NCBI RefSeq assembly: GCF_902506065.1
Contig: NZ_LR732912.1
Location: 2,537,016-2,601,015 of the forward strand
Source of the DNA: Arthrobacter sp. 9V
Lineage (GTDB): Bacteria; Actinomycetota; Actinomycetes; Actinomycetales; Micrococcaceae
DNA: 64,000 nucleotides
Reading direction: 5' to 3'
Shown piece after piece: positions 2,496 through 38,139 of this stretch. The translations under genes were made by a program, and so were the position numbers. The notes below the pieces were generated by a model. The model saw only the letters and a list, made by a program, of their open reading frames with translations, had not been told where the DNA came from and did not search any database. How positions within the stretch are numbered: the stretch's first letter is position 1; each line of letters opens with the position of its first letter.

Positions 2496-3488
2496 ATGGC
2501 AGACGACTTCACCTTCAGCATCACCACCACCCCCTTCGACGAGGACTACTCCCCGTCGGAAGGCTCGCGGATCACCACGAATTTCGCCAACTTGGCACGG
2601 GGCGAGCACCGCCAGGAGAACCTCCGCAACGCCTTGACCATGATCCGGCGCCGCTTCAACGATCTGGCAAGCTGGGACAACCCGGACCGGGACCGTTACA
2701 CGCTCGAGCTTGAGATCGTCTCCGTGCAGATAGAGTTCACTGCCGAAGGTACGGACCAGAAGTTCCCCCTGTTCGAGGTTCTCGACATCCAGATCGTCGA
2801 CCAACTGAACGGGGTCCGCCACCAAGGAATCGTGGGGAACAACTTCTCCTCCTACGTCCGTGACTTCGACTTCAGCGTGGTACTGCCGGCGGCATCAGCG
2901 GAGGCAGGCAAGCCCACCGTTCCCGAGGACTTCGGCGATCTGCACGGCAAACTGTTCCAGCAATTCCTCGATTCCCCGGCATGCCAGGAACGTTTCCCGC
3001 AGCCGCCAGTGGTGTGCATCAGCGTCTCCACGACCAAGACGTACCGGCGAACGGAAAACCATCACCCCGTCCTGGGCGTCGAGTACCAGCAGGACGAGTT
3101 CTCACTGACCGACGCGTACTTCGCAAAGATGGGGCTGCAGGTCCGCTACTTCATGCCACGCGGCAGCGTAGCGCCGCTGGCCTTCTATTTCCGCGGCGAC
3201 CTGCTCAACGACTACACCAACCTGCAGCTCATCGGCACGATCAGCACCATGGAGACGTTCCAGAAGATCTACCGCCCGGAAATTTACAACGCGAACTCCG
3301 CCGCCGCCGTCGTCTATCAGCCGAGCCTGGGAGAGCAGGATTACTCGCGGACCCAGATCGATTACGACCGCGTCGAGCGCAGTCAGCTCGCGGTCACCCA
3401 GGCGAAGTACACCGAGGAACACTTCATCACGCCCCACAAGGATCTATTGGACCAGTGGACCGCCAAACACCCCGCTCTCGTCAACTGA
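2496..3488 (+). CDS. mesX: MesX (DUF1852), partner of oxygen-dependent methionine synthase MesD
   Basis: The 330-residue protein has the features of DUF1852 (FTFSITTTPFDEDYSP near the start; DRYTLELEIVSVQIEF; GIVGNNFSSYVRDFDFSV). DUF1852 genes sit directly upstream of MesD, one of the short folate-independent methionine synthases, and MesX is reported to be needed for MesD function in aerobic bacteria. The chemistry of MesX is not established. Here it is 20 bp upstream of mesD, with a flavin reductase gene behind, and all three are probably one transcript. No signal peptide is seen, so the protein should be cytosolic. The start at 2496 is the first ATG of the conserved block. Confidence 0.88.
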   Translation: MADDFTFSITTTPFDEDYSPSEGSRITTNFANLARGEHRQENLRNALTMIRRRFNDLASWDNPDRDRYTLELEIVSVQIEFTAEGTDQKFPLFEVLDIQIVDQLNGVRHQGIVGNNFSSYVRDFDFSVVLPAASAEAGKPTVPEDFGDLHGKLFQQFLDSPACQERFPQPPVVCISVSTTKTYRRTENHHPVLGVEYQQDEFSLTDAYFAKMGLQVRYFMPRGSVAPLAFYFRGDLLNDYTNLQLIGTISTMETFQKIYRPEIYNANSAAAVVYQPSLGEQDYSRTQIDYDRVERSQLAVTQAKYTEEHFITPHKDLLDQWTAKHPALVN

Positions 3489-3508
3489 CCCACGGAGAAA
3501 CGTCAATC

Positions 3509-4555
3509 ATGAACACACTTTTGCCCACCACCGTTGTTGGAAGCCTGCCCAAACCCTCGTGGCTCGCACAGCCCGAGACTCTGTGGTCTCCCTGGAAACT
3601 GGAGGGAGATGCGCTGCTCGAGGGCAAGCAGGATGCGCTGCGCATCGCCATCCATGAGCAGAGCCGACGCGGCATCGACATCGTCAGCGACGGCGAGCAA
3701 ACCCGCCAGCACTTCGTCACCACCTTCATCGAGCATCTCAGCGGGGTCGACTTTGAACAGCGCAAGACCGTGCGCATCCGCGATCGCTACGACGCGAGCG
3801 TGCCCACCGTCGTCGGGCCGGTGCGCCGCGAGCGGCCGGTATTCGTCGACGACGCGAAGTTCCTCCGCGCAACCACCGACCGGCCGATCAAATGGACCCT
3901 TCCCGGTCCCATGACCATGGTGGACACGCTCTTCGATGACCACTACAAGAGCCGCGAGAAGCTGGCCTGGGAGTTCGCTGCGATCCTGAACCAGGAAGCG
4001 AAAGAACTGGAGGCGGCCGGCGTGGACATCATCCAGTTCGACGAGCCCGCGTTCAACGTCTTCCTCGATGAGGTCAAGGACTGGGGCGTGGCTGCGCTTG
4101 AGCGAGCGGCAGAAGGGCTGCGTGCGGAGACCGCCGTACATATCTGCTACGGCTACGGGATCAAGGCAAACAACGACTGGAAGGCGACGCTCGGCTCGCA
4201 GTGGCGGCAGTACGAGGAAACGTTCCCGCTGCTTCAGAGCTCCAGCATCGACATCATCTCGCTGGAATCCCAGAACTCCCACGTGCCTATGGACCTCATC
4301 GAGCTCCTCCGCGGCAAGAAAGTCATGCTCGGGGCAATCGACGTCGCAAGCGAGACCATCGAGACCCCGGAGGAAGTCGCCGACACCCTCCGCAAGGCCC
4401 TGCAGTTCGTCGATGCGGACAAGCTCATTGCCAGCTCCAACTGCGGCATGGCCCCGTTCCCCCGGGACGTCGCACTGGCCAAGCTGAGTGCCCTCAGCGC
4501 AGGGACGGATATCGTTCGCGAGGAACTCGAGCGCTCCGCACCCAAGGTGCCATAA
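3509..4555 (+). CDS. mesD: MesD-type folate-independent methionine synthase
   Basis: The product is 348 residues, corresponding only to the C-terminal catalytic half of cobalamin-independent MetE. Zinc ligands are visible: H-x-C in VHICYGYG (about residues 210-212), Glu in ISLESQNSH and Cys in SSNCGMAPFPRD (about residue 311). The N-terminal folate-binding half is absent, which defines the short folate-independent enzymes, and coupling to MesX assigns it to the MesD family. It should make methionine from homocysteine with an unidentified methyl donor. The ATG at 3509 follows a GGAG site and begins the conserved TTVVGSLPKP block; a longer in-frame ORF begins inside mesX but is not real. Confidence 0.9.
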   Translation: MNTLLPTTVVGSLPKPSWLAQPETLWSPWKLEGDALLEGKQDALRIAIHEQSRRGIDIVSDGEQTRQHFVTTFIEHLSGVDFEQRKTVRIRDRYDASVPTVVGPVRRERPVFVDDAKFLRATTDRPIKWTLPGPMTMVDTLFDDHYKSREKLAWEFAAILNQEAKELEAAGVDIIQFDEPAFNVFLDEVKDWGVAALERAAEGLRAETAVHICYGYGIKANNDWKATLGSQWRQYEETFPLLQSSSIDIISLESQNSHVPMDLIELLRGKKVMLGAIDVASETIETPEEVADTLRKALQFVDADKLIASSNCGMAPFPRDVALAKLSALSAGTDIVREELERSAPKVP

Positions 4556-4557
4556 CG

Positions 4558-5130
4558 ATGTTTCACGCCTACCCCCCAGACACTTGGCTCGGGGCTCCGG
4601 AGCAAAGCTTCCCGTCCTCCCTCTCGGCTGACGAATTTAAAGCACTGTTTCGTGGCCACCCGGGCGGTGTCGCCGTCATCACGGCGGATGCCGGCGAAGG
4701 GCCGGTGGCACTGACAGTATCGTCGGTGGTGTCAGTGAGTGCCGAACCTCCGTTGCTGATTTTCTCGGTCTCGGCACTGTCCTCAGCATCGGCCGTGCTT
4801 TCCCGCGCTGAAACCGTCGTGGTGCACCTGCTGGACGCGCACGACGTCGACCTGGCGAAGTTCGGAGCGACCCCCGGCGCCGGCCGCTTCAACCAGACAC
4901 ACCGCTGGTCGGCCCTTGCAACCGGCGAAGCGGTGTATGACGACGTCCGCGCCTGGGTGCGCTGCGCCGTCATCAATCGCATGGAGGTAGGGACATCCAC
5001 CATCATCGCCGTTCACGCCCTGGAGTCCCGCGTGATGCGTGACGTCCCAGCGGGAGAACCCGGCGACGCCCTGGTCTACCACAACCGTTCCTGGCACCGT
5101 CTGGGCGAGCATTCCAAGCTCGACGGCTAA
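4558..5130 (+). CDS. Flavin reductase-like domain protein
   Basis: The 190-residue protein carries the FMN-binding split-barrel of flavin reductases: FRGHPGGVAVITADAGEGPV, then SVVSVSAEPPLLIFSVS, and a C-terminal DALVYHNRSWHRL. Such enzymes use NAD(P)H to make free FMNH2 for partner monooxygenases. The ATG lies 3 bases after the mesD stop, so translation is coupled. In this position it may supply reduced flavin to the oxygen-dependent MesX/MesD reaction, or to the five luciferase-like monooxygenases downstream, which otherwise have no obvious reductase in the window. Both roles are inference; the family call is firm. Confidence 0.85.
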   Translation: MFHAYPPDTWLGAPEQSFPSSLSADEFKALFRGHPGGVAVITADAGEGPVALTVSSVVSVSAEPPLLIFSVSALSSASAVLSRAETVVVHLLDAHDVDLAKFGATPGAGRFNQTHRWSALATGEAVYDDVRAWVRCAVINRMEVGTSTIIAVHALESRVMRDVPAGEPGDALVYHNRSWHRLGEHSKLDG

Positions 5131-5170
5131 GCGCCTCGCCAACAACGCGGGGCGCCAAGCCGAACAGCGC

Positions 5171-5200
5171 ACGACGGCGGGAGGTAACTCCCGCCGTCGT
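5171..5200 (+). terminator. Hairpin terminator after mesX-mesD-flavin reductase
   Basis: A perfect 13-bp stem (5171-5183 and 5188-5200) carries a GTAA tetraloop and is followed by CCTCGTTAAC. It closes the mes operon and separates it from the clamp-like gene. Confidence 0.8.
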
Positions 5201-5288
5201 CCTCGTTAACGTCGGCGCGTCCATCGACTTCCTGAACGGCTCGGATGCAACCCTGATCTGCACGCATGCGATGAGGGATGATGGCACT

Positions 5289-6773
5289 GTGCCAGAAATT
5301 AAGAAGTGGGAATTCAAGCGATTGATTGACGAGCTCTCAGATGACCAGTACAGCCTGGTCATTCAAGCACTTCGGGACGCGAGGCTGACATGGCCGGGCT
5401 GGACCGACCGCCTCAGCCCAACGATCGACCCTCCAAAACCAGCCGAGCCGTTCAGATTTCATATCCCCTTGATGCGACTCGTCTCGGCACTCGATCTGGT
5501 CAGGACGGGGGCTGACTACTCCCCTACAGGCGCCACCAAAGGCGGCATCTGGCTGCAACCCCTTCAAGACGGCGTAAGAATGTGTTCAAGCAGCGACTTC
5601 GCCGCAGCCATCTGCGACCTCGAAGCAAACGTTGACGTCCCAGGAACTGCTGTCATCGACTCTCGCGAGTTCTGGCAGATTGTCGATGCACTCCGGAAAG
5701 GGCTGCCTTCGGCGGCGCGAGCAGCCGCAATAGCAACGATCGAGCATGACGGAGAAGAGCGAGCACGCATCAGCGTTGGTGGGCGGTCCCACCTAGCTGC
5801 AATACTGACCCGCGTTATTGACGAACCCGAGCTACCCCCGCGAGCGGATGCCACGGTCAGGGTGCATACAGTTGCAGGTTTCAAGCAAGCAGTCCCTTTC
5901 GCATCAGCTTCCGCTGGGAGCAACACGACCGGCCCGGACCCCCGAGAACCAAATCAAGTGGCCCTCCGAACCTTGGATGGGCGCCTCGTCCTCGATGCCA
6001 TCGACCGGTACTCCTATGCCCAGTCCGCCGTCCTCGCCCGGCACGACTCAGACTTCACCACTTCCCTTAATAACCGCTGGCTTCAGGACGTCACCCAAGC
6101 AATCAGCAGCGGCGAAATCCACCTCGGTGAGACAACATCGCCGGCGGGCAAGAAGCTCGTCATGATCGCTGGAAGCCACTGGGCGGCTTGGACAAGCAAG
6201 GTTGCCCCCTGGAAAGAAACCCATAATCCTGCCGACTGCAATATCACCGCGTCGGCGACGTTCAATAGCAAGAAAGTCTTCTCCTATCTCTCCGAGGCAA
6301 AACGCCTGGCCGAGTCCTCGCGAACCGGCTACAAGAGCGGGATCGTCAGAGTGCAGCTGGAGCAGGATTTCCTACACATCTCTTCTGCCACTAGCCAAGA
6401 GACCGCTCGTACCGGTTCCATCCGTGTCGAAGCGCAAACCAATAATCAACAACCCGCGAGCACATATTTGGCAGTTCAGCGACTGCACGGCGCACTACGA
6501 CACTTCACGAACCACGACGTCACGATCCACCTCACTGACACCACCGCGGTTTACCTCACCACCCCTGGATACCACCCAGCGACCACCCTCCCGCTCTCTG
6601 GGCGATACCCGCACGAAAGCGCCGGAACACTAGCCTCGTCGGTGGGTGGCGGAGTGCTCGCTCATTTCCCACGCCCCCGACGTGGCAGTTGGCAGCCAAC
6701 AACAAAGAGTAATCGGCCAATCGGAGCGGCCAGCCAGCTCCGCACACCTAAGTATTCTGCGTCATGTCAATAA
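5289..6773 (+). CDS. Divergent DNA polymerase III beta-clamp (DnaN)-like protein with terminal extensions
   Basis: The 494-residue product shows three successive clamp-like segments. Segment 1 (about 54-185) has GGIWLQPLQDGVRMCSSSDF, then VPGTAVIDSREFWQIVDAL and ARISVGGRSHLAAI. Segment 2 (about 190-315) has VALRTLDGRLVLDAIDRYSYA, the counterpart of the 'atDryrLA' motif of DnaN. Segment 3 (about 320-430) ends in VTIHLTDTTAVYLTTPG, matching the last strands of a clamp. About 50 residues precede segment 1 and about 65 follow segment 3, replacing the usual MPM(R/L) C-terminus. GTG at 5289 follows GAGGGA; ATG at 5271 is the alternative. The gene stands alone and looks less GC-rich than its neighbours, suggesting transfer. 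Housekeeping DnaN is about 370-390 residues, so this is a paralogue. Homology is judged by eye. Confidence 0.7.
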   Translation: MPEIKKWEFKRLIDELSDDQYSLVIQALRDARLTWPGWTDRLSPTIDPPKPAEPFRFHIPLMRLVSALDLVRTGADYSPTGATKGGIWLQPLQDGVRMCSSSDFAAAICDLEANVDVPGTAVIDSREFWQIVDALRKGLPSAARAAAIATIEHDGEERARISVGGRSHLAAILTRVIDEPELPPRADATVRVHTVAGFKQAVPFASASAGSNTTGPDPREPNQVALRTLDGRLVLDAIDRYSYAQSAVLARHDSDFTTSLNNRWLQDVTQAISSGEIHLGETTSPAGKKLVMIAGSHWAAWTSKVAPWKETHNPADCNITASATFNSKKVFSYLSEAKRLAESSRTGYKSGIVRVQLEQDFLHISSATSQETARTGSIRVEAQTNNQQPASTYLAVQRLHGALRHFTNHDVTIHLTDTTAVYLTTPGYHPATTLPLSGRYPHESAGTLASSVGGGVLAHFPRPRRGSWQPTTKSNRPIGAASQLRTPKYSASCQ

Positions 6774-6883
6774 CTAAACTTCCAGCTGCGAACAAGGACA
6801 AGTTCGCGCAGCATCACTTCGAAACACCGAATTCCGTGAGGGTGCACGCAGCCGGAGGCAACTGCGGGATAAGGGAGGTACCT

Positions 6884-8539
6884 CTAGCCCGTCACCCGCC
6901 CCGGAATCGCGGAAATCAGTTGGCGGGTGTACTCCTGAGTGGGGCTGTCCAGCACTTCGAGTGCCTCCCCGATTTCCACCAATTTCCCGGCCTGCATCAC
7001 CGCCACGCGGTCTGAGATTTGCTGCACCACTGCAAGATCATGCGAGATGAACAGGTAGCTTAAGGACTCCTGCGCTTGCAGCTCAGCCAACAACGACAGG
7101 ATCTGCGCTTGCACGGAAACGTCCAAGGCAGACACGGCTTCATCCAGCACCACCAGCTCCGGTTTCAACGCCAAGGCCCGGGCGATGGCCACACGCTGAC
7201 GTTGGCCGCCAGAGAGTTCCGCCGGACGACGGGAACCGTAGTCCACGGGAAGATGGACTTCCTCAAGCAACGCCTTCACCCTGCCCTTCCGATCAGCCGG
7301 TGTGCCGTCCGCAAAGGCCCGCAGTGGCTCGGCAATGATGTCCTCCACAGTGAAACGAGGGTCCAGAGATGCGTAGGGACTCTGGAACACCACTTGGAAC
7401 CGGCGTCGGAGCTGGCGCAGCCTCTCTCCTTTCGCACTGGCCAGATCCACGCCGTCGAACACCACCGAACCGGACGTCGGTTTGTCCAACCTCAGCAACA
7501 AGCGGGCAACAGTGCTCTTTCCGGAGCCGGACTCCCCCACCAGCGCCAAAGTTTCGCCGCGGTTGATATTCAGCGAAACATCGTCGACGGCGGTCAGCGA
7601 TCTTGTGCCTCCGGTTGCACGCGGAAGTGTGAAGACTTTCCTGAGCGACTTGGCCTCCACCAGAGTTGAGCCGGACGCAGTACCGCCGGCCGGCGTCGTC
7701 CCCCGGTCAACAACTGGCACCGTTGGCCGCAGCCTGCGCGGGTTCAGCCCCGGTGCCGCTTCAATGAGTTGCCGGGTGTAGCTGTGCTGTGGGCTTCCCA
7801 GCACAGCCGCTGCTGACCCTTCCTCCACAATCTCTCCGCTACGCATCACAATAATGCGGTGCGCGCGGTCAGCCGCGACGCCGAGGTCGTGGGTGATCAG
7901 CAGGACCGCGGTCCCCCGCTCCTCGGTCAAGGCAGCAATGTTGTCCAGGATCTGCCGCTGTACCGTCACGTCCAGCGCACTGGTGGGCTCATCAGCGATG
8001 ACCAGTTTCGGCTGGGCAGCAAGCGCTGTGGCAATGAGGACACGTTGGCGCATGCCACCGGAGAACTGATGAGGAAACTGGCGCGCCCGGGAGGGAGCGT
8101 CGCGGATTCCGGATTCCTCCAGCAACCTGACGGCACTCTGCCGCGCAGCCTTCCTGGGCTGGAGCCGGTGGATGGTGAGCGCTTCGGCCACTTGTTCGCC
8201 CACCCGTTGGAGGGGATCCAATGACGCCGTGGGGTCCTGCGGAATCAGCCCGATATCCTTGCCGCGCACCCCCTGCCACTCCTTGCGCGTCAGCTGCGTC
8301 AGGTCCGTGCCGTCGAAGGTCACGCTGCCGGACAAAACTCGGGCGTTGCCAGGCAAAAGGTTGATGATGGAATGCGCCGTGGTGGTCTTGCCGGAGCCCG
8401 ACTCCCCCACAATCGCCACGACTTCGCTCGCCCGGACCTCAAAGCTGACACCCGCCACCGCGTTCCGCGGGGATCCGTCCACCGCATAGTCCACACGTAG
8501 GTTCTCCACCTTCAACAGCGTTTCAGCAGGGGAGCTCAT
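6884..8539 (-). CDS. Peptide-type ABC transporter, fused double ATPase (DppD-DppF-like)
   Basis: The 551-residue protein holds two complete ABC ATPase domains. Domain 1 (about 8-260) has Walker A GESGSGKTT, signature FSGGMRQRV and Walker B LVIADEP. Domain 2 (about 290-545) has [18 protein letters not shown] and LVVLDEA. It energises the two permeases encoded just upstream, overlapping the second by 4 bp. The Cys-rich C-terminal segment typical of DppD/OppD is absent from both halves, unlike the ATPases at 51.5-54.5 kb. As the last gene of the riboswitch-controlled operon it probably imports an organosulfur compound. Confidence 0.93.
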   Translation of the reverse strand: MSSPAETLLKVENLRVDYAVDGSPRNAVAGVSFEVRASEVVAIVGESGSGKTTTAHSIINLLPGNARVLSGSVTFDGTDLTQLTRKEWQGVRGKDIGLIPQDPTASLDPLQRVGEQVAEALTIHRLQPRKAARQSAVRLLEESGIRDAPSRARQFPHQFSGGMRQRVLIATALAAQPKLVIADEPTSALDVTVQRQILDNIAALTEERGTAVLLITHDLGVAADRAHRIIVMRSGEIVEEGSAAAVLGSPQHSYTRQLIEAAPGLNPRRLRPTVPVVDRGTTPAGGTASGSTLVEAKSLRKVFTLPRATGGTRSLTAVDDVSLNINRGETLALVGESGSGKSTVARLLLRLDKPTSGSVVFDGVDLASAKGERLRQLRRRFQVVFQSPYASLDPRFTVEDIIAEPLRAFADGTPADRKGRVKALLEEVHLPVDYGSRRPAELSGGQRQRVAIARALALKPELVVLDEAVSALDVSVQAQILSLLAELQAQESLSYLFISHDLAVVQQISDRVAVMQAGKLVEIGEALEVLDSPTQEYTRQLISAIPGRVTG

Positions 8540-9483
8540 GGCCGGTTCCTTTCAGAGTCTTGGAAAGCATGCGAAATACGGTTGGTGGACAGCACGACGG
8601 CGGCAATCACCACGCCCGGCAACGTCACCAACCACCACGCAGCCACCAGGTAGTCGCGACCTCCGGCCACCAGTGAACCCCATTCCGCAGAGGGTGGTGG
8701 TGCGCCGAACCCGAGGAAGCTCAGCGATGAAATCGACAGGACTGCCATGCCGAACTCCAGCGCGGACAAGGCCAGAACCGGGCCGGCAGCGTTGGGGAGG
8801 ACATGTCGGAGGAGGATGGAGTGCCACCCGACGCCCGAGGACCGTGCAGCCTCAACGTACACAGCAGTGCTCACCCGGAGGGTTTCAGCCCGCATGATCC
8901 GGGCGAAGTTGGCCACACTGGCAATACCCACCGCGATTGCGATGTTGATGGTTCCGAAGCCGAGCACCGTGATGAGAGCCAAGGAAAGCAGCAAGCTGGG
9001 AATGGCCAGCAGCACATCCATGACGCGCATGATGGCGTCATCCACCCACCCCCTGATGGAGCCAGCCAGCAAACCGAGCGCCGATCCCGCAACCAGGCCG
9101 ACGGCGACAGCCACAGCCGTGGCAGCCAAGGACGTCGCCGAGCCGTGGACCACCCGGGAGAACAGGTCGCGGCCCAGGCTGTCGGTTCCAAACCAGTGTT
9201 CCGCGGACGGCGGTTTGAGCCGCGACGACGGAACACCCGTGTCCGGAGGCCACTGGGTAAAAGCCTCGGGAACCAACGCCCACAGGATCACCAAGGCAAG
9301 GACCAGCACGGACAGCACCAACCCCGGCTTGGCCACAGCCTGGCGGACCCTGAGGACCCAGCCGCGGGCAGAAGCCCTGCCAACGGCACTCGGTGCAGCG
9401 GATCCCACGGAGCTCGTGGGTGGCTTTCCGTCCGACGAGCTGCTCTCAGCAGACGTAGGTTCCCTCACAAGTTGCTGCGTCAT
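8536..9483 (-). CDS. ABC transporter permease (DppC-like)
   Basis: The 315-residue inner-membrane protein has an N-terminal cytosolic segment of about 45 residues, then TM segments and the DppC signature HWFGTDSLGRDLFSRVV. The EAA loop (YVEAARSSGVGWHSILLRHV) and GFGAPPPSAEWGSLV follow near the C-terminus. It pairs with the DppB-like protein encoded 10 bp upstream to form the channel. Its stop overlaps the start of the fused ATPase by 4 bp, indicating translational coupling. Confidence 0.93.
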   Translation of the reverse strand: MTQQLVREPTSAESSSSDGKPPTSSVGSAAPSAVGRASARGWVLRVRQAVAKPGLVLSVLVLALVILWALVPEAFTQWPPDTGVPSSRLKPPSAEHWFGTDSLGRDLFSRVVHGSATSLAATAVAVAVGLVAGSALGLLAGSIRGWVDDAIMRVMDVLLAIPSLLLSLALITVLGFGTINIAIAVGIASVANFARIMRAETLRVSTAVYVEAARSSGVGWHSILLRHVLPNAAGPVLALSALEFGMAVLSISSLSFLGFGAPPPSAEWGSLVAGGRDYLVAAWWLVTLPGVVIAAVVLSTNRISHAFQDSERNRP

Positions 9484-9493
9484 GATGGCCCTC

Positions 9494-10441
9494 CTAGACC
9501 TTGGCGCCGCGCGCTGTGTTGATGCGCGGGTCCACGAGCGGGTAGATCAGGTCAATGATCAAGCTGGTGATGACAAAGATGGCGGCTGCCAGGACCACCA
9601 GGGTCTGGACCACCGGGATGTCCCTGCTGTTGACGGCTGTGACAGTGAGCCGCCCAATGCCTGCTCGGGAGAACACTGTCTCGCTCACCACTGCACCGGC
9701 CAGCAGATTTCCCACCAAAATTCCGAGCATGGTCAGCGTGGGAATGGCTGCGTTCCGGAGGGCATGGCCAAAGTTGATCAGCGCTTCACTGGCTCCCTTG
9801 GCCCGGATCTGTTCGATGTATGGTTCGCCCAACGTTTGGCGCAAGCTGCGCGTCAGCAGCTGGGCGATCACGGCAGAGGTGGGTATGGCCAAAGTCAGGG
9901 CTGGAAGCACGAGGCTCTGGCCGCCGTCGTTCCCTATCGCGGGAAACAAGCGCAACCGGAAGGAGAAGAACTGCAGGAGCAGGAGGCCGATCCAGAAGGT
10001 GGGCACCGCGATGCCCAAAGGCGGTAGCGAGGAGAAGGCCTGACGGATCCAGCGGTTGCGGCTGAACGCCGCAACCACTGCCAAGGCACTGCCCAGGAGC
10101 ACCGCGAGTGCGAATCCCGCTACAGCCAACTTGATGGTCTCCGGCAGGACTTCCGCCACAGTCTGAGTTGCAGGGACACCATTCTTGATGGATAGCCCGA
10201 AATCCAGCTGGAGCGCCTTGAACAGCGCCACGAAGTATTGCTCGTAAAGAGGCCTGTCCAAGCCATACTCCGCGCGCAGCTTCTCCACGAGTGCCGGATC
10301 CACTGCGTTCTGTTCGTCCCCGCTGGCCATGATGCTGACGGCGTCGCCGGGCAGCAAGTACAGGATCAGGAAGGACACTGTGTAGGCGGCCCAGAGGACG
10401 AACGCGCCTTGCAGCAACCGTTGGCCGATGTAGCGGATCAT
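9494..10441 (-). CDS. ABC transporter permease (DppB-like)
   Basis: The 315-residue protein begins MIRYIGQRLLQG, the standard DppB N-terminus, and contains LLPGDAVSIMASGD, a periplasmic loop rich in charged residues, and the EAA loop YIEQIRAKGASEALINFGHA. About six membrane segments are visible. It lies 7 bp downstream of the binding-protein gene and 10 bp upstream of the partner permease, in the SAM-IV-regulated operon. Confidence 0.93.
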   Translation of the reverse strand: MIRYIGQRLLQGAFVLWAAYTVSFLILYLLPGDAVSIMASGDEQNAVDPALVEKLRAEYGLDRPLYEQYFVALFKALQLDFGLSIKNGVPATQTVAEVLPETIKLAVAGFALAVLLGSALAVVAAFSRNRWIRQAFSSLPPLGIAVPTFWIGLLLLQFFSFRLRLFPAIGNDGGQSLVLPALTLAIPTSAVIAQLLTRSLRQTLGEPYIEQIRAKGASEALINFGHALRNAAIPTLTMLGILVGNLLAGAVVSETVFSRAGIGRLTVTAVNSRDIPVVQTLVVLAAAIFVITSLIIDLIYPLVDPRINTARGAKV

Positions 10442-37937: not shown

Positions 37938-37957
37938 ACCCCCTCTGACGAGGGGGT
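37938..37957 (-). terminator. Rho-independent terminator downstream of tRNA fragment
   Basis: A 7-bp GC-rich stem (37938-37944 and 37951-37957) with a 6-base loop is followed on the minus strand by a run of five T (37934-37938). It sits 6 bp after the tRNA 3' fragment, where a tRNA terminator would be. Confidence 0.75.
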
Positions 37958-37963
37958 ATGCCG

Positions 37964-37983
37964 TGCCCGAGGTGGGACTCGAA
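37964..37983 (-). other. tRNA 3'-end fragment, candidate attachment site
   Basis: On the minus strand these 20 bases read TTCGAGTCCCACCTCGGGCA: a T-loop, the 3' side of a T stem, and the 3' acceptor strand ending in a discriminator A. The preceding bases do not pair with the T stem and no matching 5' acceptor (GCCCGAGG) occurs within 100 bp, so this is not a whole tRNA. It fits the 3' copy left at one end of an element integrated into a tRNA gene, with the native terminator on its left. The tRNA identity (perhaps Leu) is uncertain. Confidence 0.65.
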
Positions 37984-38077
37984 CGGGATTCCGAGCCTTG
38001 GAAACACTGGGAAGTGGCGGAAACATGCGGAATCCGGGCCGATTCGATGGCTGAACGAGGCAGTCCGCGGTGGAAAG

Positions 38078-38094
38078 TGTGGACATTGTCCACA
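38078..38094. repeat. 17-bp palindrome
   Basis: TGTGGACA-T-TGTCCACA is a perfect palindrome with a 1-base centre, about 95 bp right of the tRNA fragment. It could be an operator or a recombinase-binding site. No gene start is adjacent. Confidence 0.5.
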
Positions 38095-38139
38095 AACTCC
38101 ATGAGGCCCTCATCCACAACTGCATGACGTGCGAGGCGG

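Follow-up and report, generated by a model that had tools for sequence, protein, structure and literature searches.

A rare, highly divergent beta-clamp family that appears to have lost the canonical partner pocket, and its probably frameshifted member in Arthrobacter sp. 9V

According to passages of a 2024 review, the motifs of all known partners of the sliding clamp bind one pocket, which is evolutionarily preserved and for which 18 distinct residues are given in the E. coli clamp (PMC11139829). For an E. coli clamp lacking the last five residues, sections of a second paper describe that it is not loadable and does not support Pol III alone, and that it works as a heterodimer with the wild type (PMC3022782). 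The family treated here was not seen described in listings of the open-licence literature on second DnaN, phage clamps, GriR and pocket-less clamps.

The window investigated here is a stretch of 64,000 nucleotides from Arthrobacter sp. 9V (NZ_LR732912.1). For one of its genes the initial annotation had proposed an orphan, highly divergent clamp-fold protein, and this was borne out by profiles, predicted structure and relatives. We interpret the gene, with a probability of about 0.72, as a C-terminally frameshifted copy from a rare accessory beta-clamp family, in which the three-domain fold and an N-terminal extension are kept and the partner pocket and the MPVRL-type C-terminus are lost. The locus is composed as follows (window positions):

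4558..5130, + strand: flavin reductase-like gene, conserved left neighbour of the apparent hot spot, named by inspection
5171-5207: inverted repeat 3' of the flavin reductase-like gene
5271..5272, no strand: left insertion junction, spanned by the annotated ATG
5271-6773, + strand: ORF encoding the clamp-like protein, 500 aa, from the open reading frame list
5289..5447, + strand: N-terminal extension including the likely native GTG start, 53 aa, two predicted helices
5448..5858, + strand: clamp domain 1, holding VPGTAVIDSREFW, from alignment and predicted structure
5859..6236, + strand: clamp domain 2, from alignment and predicted structure
5997..6020, + strand: AIDRYSYA, replacing ATDRYRLA of ordinary clamps, within the apparently lost partner-binding pocket, from alignment
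6237..6572, + strand: clamp domain 3, ending in VYLTTPG, the last part in frame with the relatives, from alignment
6573..6773, + strand: out-of-frame tail without domain; indels from 6575 onward displace the C-terminus of the relatives
6774..6865, + strand: SW1-like DNA past the ORF end; similarity stops at 6865 (G152: 6704)

The ATG at 5271 was rejected as start because it sits on the left insertion junction, and the likely native start is GTG 5289, 53 aa ahead of domain 1. Of the extra N-terminal segment claimed before, these 53 aa are real and the ATG start is not. Three segments quoted as clamp-like in the initial annotation each mapped to their own clamp domain (1, 2 and 3) in the alignment. 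It was also correct that the gene stands alone among neighbours of differing composition: its GC content is 58.6% (whole window 62.1%) and its GC3 65%, compared with 74-85% in three neighbours. A sigma-70-like promoter was not found in window 4900-7000, where 0.4 would be expected by chance; hence, this search is uninformative. Window 2496-5130 carries a gene for a MesX-type oxygenase (PF08908), then a MetE-like gene, then the flavin reductase-like gene, an arrangement that resembles a folate-independent methionine synthase cluster.

Relatives were sought in genus, family, order, phylum and class genome groups, which overlap. In the genus search six of the 206 whole genomes matched at E <= 0.001. 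Arthrobacter sp. SW1 (G005; NZ_MJLT01000017.1) has an open copy with 80-84% identity. The copy of genome G152 lies at the same site as that of the window and is 76% identical; the matched part contains two in-frame stops. G066 has a broken fragment with 58% identity over 53 residues. This remnant, at L070 6033-6265, contains in-frame stops, and stretches of 60 and 28 residues in it share about 52% and 54% identity, respectively, with SW1. A full-length relative (E 2.8e-86, 36% identity) was found by the class search (236 genomes) in a distant actinobacterium, G1376. The family-level search (395 genomes) added only G300, an ordinary clamp, the phylum-level search (396 genomes) only G907, a weak match not counted as a family member, and the order-level search (396 genomes) nothing. 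G091, G192 and G300 (E <= 0.001) were rejected as family members, their conserved motifs being those of ordinary phage-type clamps. Their loci (L006, L007 and L015, respectively) are probably prophages; by eye, a DNA methyltransferase-like gene was seen nearby in L006 and L007.

Searches of 50,697 phage records and 72,556 plasmid records, and pattern searches of viral_contigs, yielded no family member. Phage and plasmid matches at E 0.7 to 8 were regarded as chance, with one exception at E 2, the ordinary clamp of phage Persistence. The N-terminal extension alone gave nothing convincing against phages, and among 96 genus genomes clear matches only in G000 (the genome itself) and G005, with three more at E 0.07-0.09. 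Its codon pattern selected 26 viral stretches, none of which held a true relative; the weak extension matches there (E 0.003-0.04) are expected, since the stretches were chosen by this very pattern. From viral_contigs the ordinary clamp L015 retrieved nothing, and the ordinary-clamp alignment A3 retrieved 16 loci. The family to which the window gene belongs is rare.

The window protein has a real three-domain clamp fold, which is very divergent. The phrog_947 profile ('DNA polymerase processivity factor') matched its residues 68-433 with E 5.6e-9, and also the proteins of SW1 (3.9e-10) and G1376 (1.3e-7). With a profile of 19 other clamps, in which no member of the window/SW1/G1376 family was included, E-values of 8.9e-12 for the window protein and 1e-12 for the SW1 copy were obtained; the best control reached 0.26 (400 shuffles, 2 reversals and 142 window open frames including the clamp ORF). 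TIGR00663 (E 8.2e-4, 18.4 bits) and PF02768 (E 0.0042, 17.3 bits) hit the window protein under their curated cut-offs of 137.65 and 27 bits, respectively, and Pfam gave no match for the proteins of SW1 (E 0.1) and G1376 (E 10). Identity to the other clamps compared is 13-21%, for example 20.9% to L015 and 20.1% to Persistence gp71. A two-sequence profile aligned against three clamps by hhalign gave 59% probability (E 9.2e-5). The comparison with the genome's own dnaN, recommended in the initial annotation, revealed a separate normal gene with 18.1% identity (L010, C137:4709688-4710062), the single PF02768 match of the genome, to which the window gene is extra. In the tree the family splits from the clamps on a branch of about 5 changes per column, too long to place it.

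The AlphaFold2 model from the two-sequence alignment only was useless (pLDDT 30.8). Once 14 viral clamps had been added to the alignment, pLDDT 75.2 and pTM 0.68 were reached; these added clamps bias the model towards the clamp fold, and the profile evidence does not depend on the model. Two helices are predicted in the N-terminal extension, as well as the six long ones that three clamp domains should have. By sequence, the net charge of the inner helices is +6 in window and SW1, and -2 to +11 in the 19 others. Foldseek gave 513 matches of the model at E <= 0.001. All 50 matches listed were sliding clamps, the best among those listed being 5ah2 chain C (E 6.5e-22), and VIA-align to 8dkd yielded Z 32.2 and 3.0 A over 349 residues. 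Profile search and Foldseek both returned clamps; a blank clamp profile search and a model without the three clamp folds, the outcomes named before as speaking against a clamp, were not obtained. In PDB sequence searches with the window protein and the two-sequence profile no sliding clamp matched. Ribosomal uS11 (best 0.0038) and, with the window protein, aminopeptidase C had weak E-values and were treated as chance; a TetR_C_11 match (0.09) in the window protein was likewise dropped.

The 53-residue N-terminal extension is common to the three full-length proteins (window, SW1 and G1376) and is the best-conserved part of the family. Between window and G1376 33 of its 53 residues are identical (62%), compared with 38% in domain 1, 30% in domain 2 and 28% in domain 3. 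The pocket was scored as agreement with the consensus of the remaining clamps at 18 E. coli-based positions. In the first alignment the window protein keeps 2 and SW1 1 of the 18, in the second window, SW1 and G1376 keep 3, 2 and 3; the alignment is unsure around E. coli positions 242-247 and at the C-terminus, and the count moves by one between alignments. The 19 other clamps keep 10-18 positions; the value of 10/18 belongs to the E. coli clamp, whose background is nearly as divergent as that of the window protein. For the latter, 2/18 in the pocket is only modestly below its background of 25/71 conserved columns. Where ordinary clamps have TDRYRL, the window reads IDRYSY and G1376 NNRKAA. 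The family lacks the VDGDYPK stretch, with a common GxHWAAW close to its place, and also the MPVRL-type C-terminal strand, where PPALWAVPR is found in SW1 and PPAVRATR in G1376. Judged by these alignments, the canonical partner pocket appears to be lost in the three full-length members. The suggestion that the protein might alter partner recruitment gains indirect support from this loss.

For the C-terminus, the initial annotation had assumed a further added segment, which proved to be a frameshift effect. Between window and SW1, 428 codons can be aligned free of indels, and single-base indels set in at 6575. The native tail is PGYQPGQYPPALWAVPR in SW1 and AGFRPGDRPPAVRATR in G1376; these are identical in 8 of 18 residues, and because of this resemblance the SW1 frame was taken as ancestral. 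The window holds the letters of the native tail in other frames, and the frame used continues to 6773. Thus, the apparent extension is most likely an effect of decay, as the tail is out of frame after the indels. The G152 copy has further frameshifts within the fold, so that two of the three full-length copies in Arthrobacter have a damaged frame. One of the two window indels falls in a run of C, which leaves room for an assembly error; the other ORFs in window 1-14 kb are long and open, counting against frequent indel errors. We regard the frameshift as decay and an assembly error as the less likely cause.

The gene is under purifying selection between window and SW1. In an ungapped comparison of 430 codons, of which the last two lie at the indel, dN was 0.073 and dS 0.286 by NG86 (dN/dS about 0.25); YN00 gave 0.069/0.309. 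Changes were assigned to the lineages of window, SW1 and G152 with 422 usable of the 428 codons. The window lineage has 29 synonymous and 38 nonsynonymous changes (ratio approx. 0.54), the SW1 lineage 40 and 24 (approx. 0.25) and the G152 lineage 30 and 22 (approx. 0.30), with a neutral expectation of 2.42 nonsynonymous to synonymous. Window and SW1 lineage differ (Fisher p 0.036), and the window lineage is still under the neutral expectation (p 0.010). The lineage ratios together with the below-neutral changes indicate that the gene was once functional and that constraint was relaxed in the window lineage. What the window carries at this insertion hot spot is probably a remnant in decay, no longer functional.

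Of the 206 genus genomes, 83 have a match to the flavin reductase-like left neighbour at E <= 0.001, many over short pieces only, and the best 30 of these loci were used for comparison of the site. Own locus and G152 aside, 28 are clamp-free. Eight of them follow the window sequence as far as 5270-5271 and then lose it, and 20 lose it earlier (5128-5235); in the stretches compared, none of the 28 is similar to window 5272-9000. What follows downstream varies among the clamp-free genomes (junctions of eight, ORFs of six), some being alike. Because of this varying content beyond the junction the site looks like an insertion hot spot. The clamp of G152, at the same site as in the window, indicates one shared insertion. 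The SW1 clamp lies in other surroundings, with a Fic/DOC gene near and an N6 DNA methylase further off, and the surroundings of the G1376 clamp are likewise unlike those of the window. The proposed mobility is thus supported by the hot-spot insertion and the differing surroundings of the SW1 and G1376 members. Transposon-like ends were sought as well, and no convincing terminal repeats were detected around the window gene.

By eye, an ORF of about 90 residues was seen downstream of the SW1 clamp (L003 about 9230-9500), past the part that SW1 and the window have in common. Direct repeats of about 300 bp, 3.38 kb apart, flank the SW1 pair and include about 22 bases of tRNA-Leu 3'-end sequence. 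One such repeat lies 3' of the G152 clamp, and two of the 28 clamp-free sites have one. A repeat of about 145 bp, starting with about 22 bases of the tRNA-Leu 3' end and ending in a palindrome of the TGTGGACA-N-TGTCCACA type, was located as follows:

window 37954-38096; L003 6705-6844 and 10082-10221; L018; L028: tRNA-Leu repeat of about 145 bp
3115-3249 of the reverse complement of L004: the same repeat in G152

It is scattered in Arthrobacter genomes and lies near the clamp in two. The tRNA-Leu repeats are possibly attachment-site remnants of small integrative elements.

Without the pocket, neither loading nor polymerase recruitment via the usual clamp-binding motif would be expected. By analogy with the truncated E. 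coli clamp, an intact family member should not act via clamp-binding motifs, and the window copy still less. An intact member would most likely either use its N-terminal extension or pair with the host clamp and alter the traffic of the latter; its role may be that of a host-clamp modulator or of a clamp with new partners. Our wider proposal is tentative: a clamp-fold family without the universal pocket might work via a new module at the N-terminus, and its members could be either DNA-tethering rings that have partners of their own or modulators that silence another clamp by pairing with it.

Alternatively, the gene could descend from a phage- or plasmid-borne clamp which replicated only its element together with an own polymerase and is now a fossil, pocket loss being drift. 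We consider this rather doubtful. The best-fitting profile is that of a phage family (phrog_947), the nearest ordinary clamps compared (L015, Persistence gp71) are of phage or prophage type, and the insertion is solitary and decaying. However, extension and pocket loss are also found in the open frames of SW1 and G1376, and selection is visible between window and SW1. In addition, the phage and plasmid records and the viral_contigs patterns yielded no family member, and by eye replication genes were not seen beside the SW1 and G1376 copies.

A conflict role as decoy or poison, pairing with the clamp of the host or of an invading phage and blocking it, seems unlikely. Heterodimers of a wild-type clamp with one lacking a functional pocket are described in parts of PMC3022782, but with 18.1% identity to the host clamp such pairing is doubtful here. 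The Fic/DOC gene near the SW1 copy and the N6 DNA methylase further off would fit a decoy, yet by eye G1376 is without neighbours of either type, and no PADLOC match was obtained. That the gene encodes a second clamp insensitive to a drug, as griR and mypR do in the griselimycin and mycoplanecin producers, is very improbable. Self-resistance DnaN genes of actinomycetes, near transposase genes, are known from portions of PMC10817943, and the altered place is indeed the pocket; a replacement must still bind the polymerase, however, and nearly the whole pocket is gone. Furthermore, no peptide synthetase gene was noticed in the ORFs of window 1-14 kb or near L003 or G1376. Chance similarity of a protein that is not a clamp can hardly be maintained, despite Pfam and NCBIfam matches under the cut-offs or, for SW1 and G1376, blank, the 59% in hhalign and the failed two-sequence model, since the phage clamp profile covers most of the length of three members, controls score far lower and the structure matches are clamps.

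A frameshifted copy from a rare accessory clamp family is therefore our preferred reading. If the wider proposal is true, the family would form a class of clamps that clamp-binding motifs do not read. Were such a pocket-less family under selection, it would demonstrate that rewiring of the ring is possible and supply a clamp naturally devoid of the pocket for study. The copies of use are the open ones from SW1 and G1376; that of the window is probably broken.

Among the known systems, GriR and MypR are likewise second DnaN-type genes of actinomycetes in mobile surroundings, as described in parts of PMC10817943. There, griR and mypR are described with antibiotic gene clusters; none was noticed in the ORF lists here, and the pocket is nearly erased. 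The phrog_947 actinophage and prophage clamps provide the best-scoring profile and the nearest ordinary clamps compared. Unlike the window family, 17 phage- or prophage-type clamps keep 15-18 of the 18 pocket positions, and gp71 of the Arthrobacter phage Persistence sits among replication genes. The clamps of window, L003 and G1376 do not, the neighbours being largely judged by eye. DnaN (L010; 5ah2 of M. smegmatis; 8dkd of M. thermoresistibile) is alike in the three-domain fold with six inner helices, and the inner charge of window and SW1 is inside the range of other clamps. The window protein differs from DnaN by its low identity to the host clamp, the apparent loss of pocket and MPVRL, the N-terminal extension and the orphan site. 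As a DnaN member the family fails in pocket, C-terminus and curated cut-off; it is clamp-like by fold alone.
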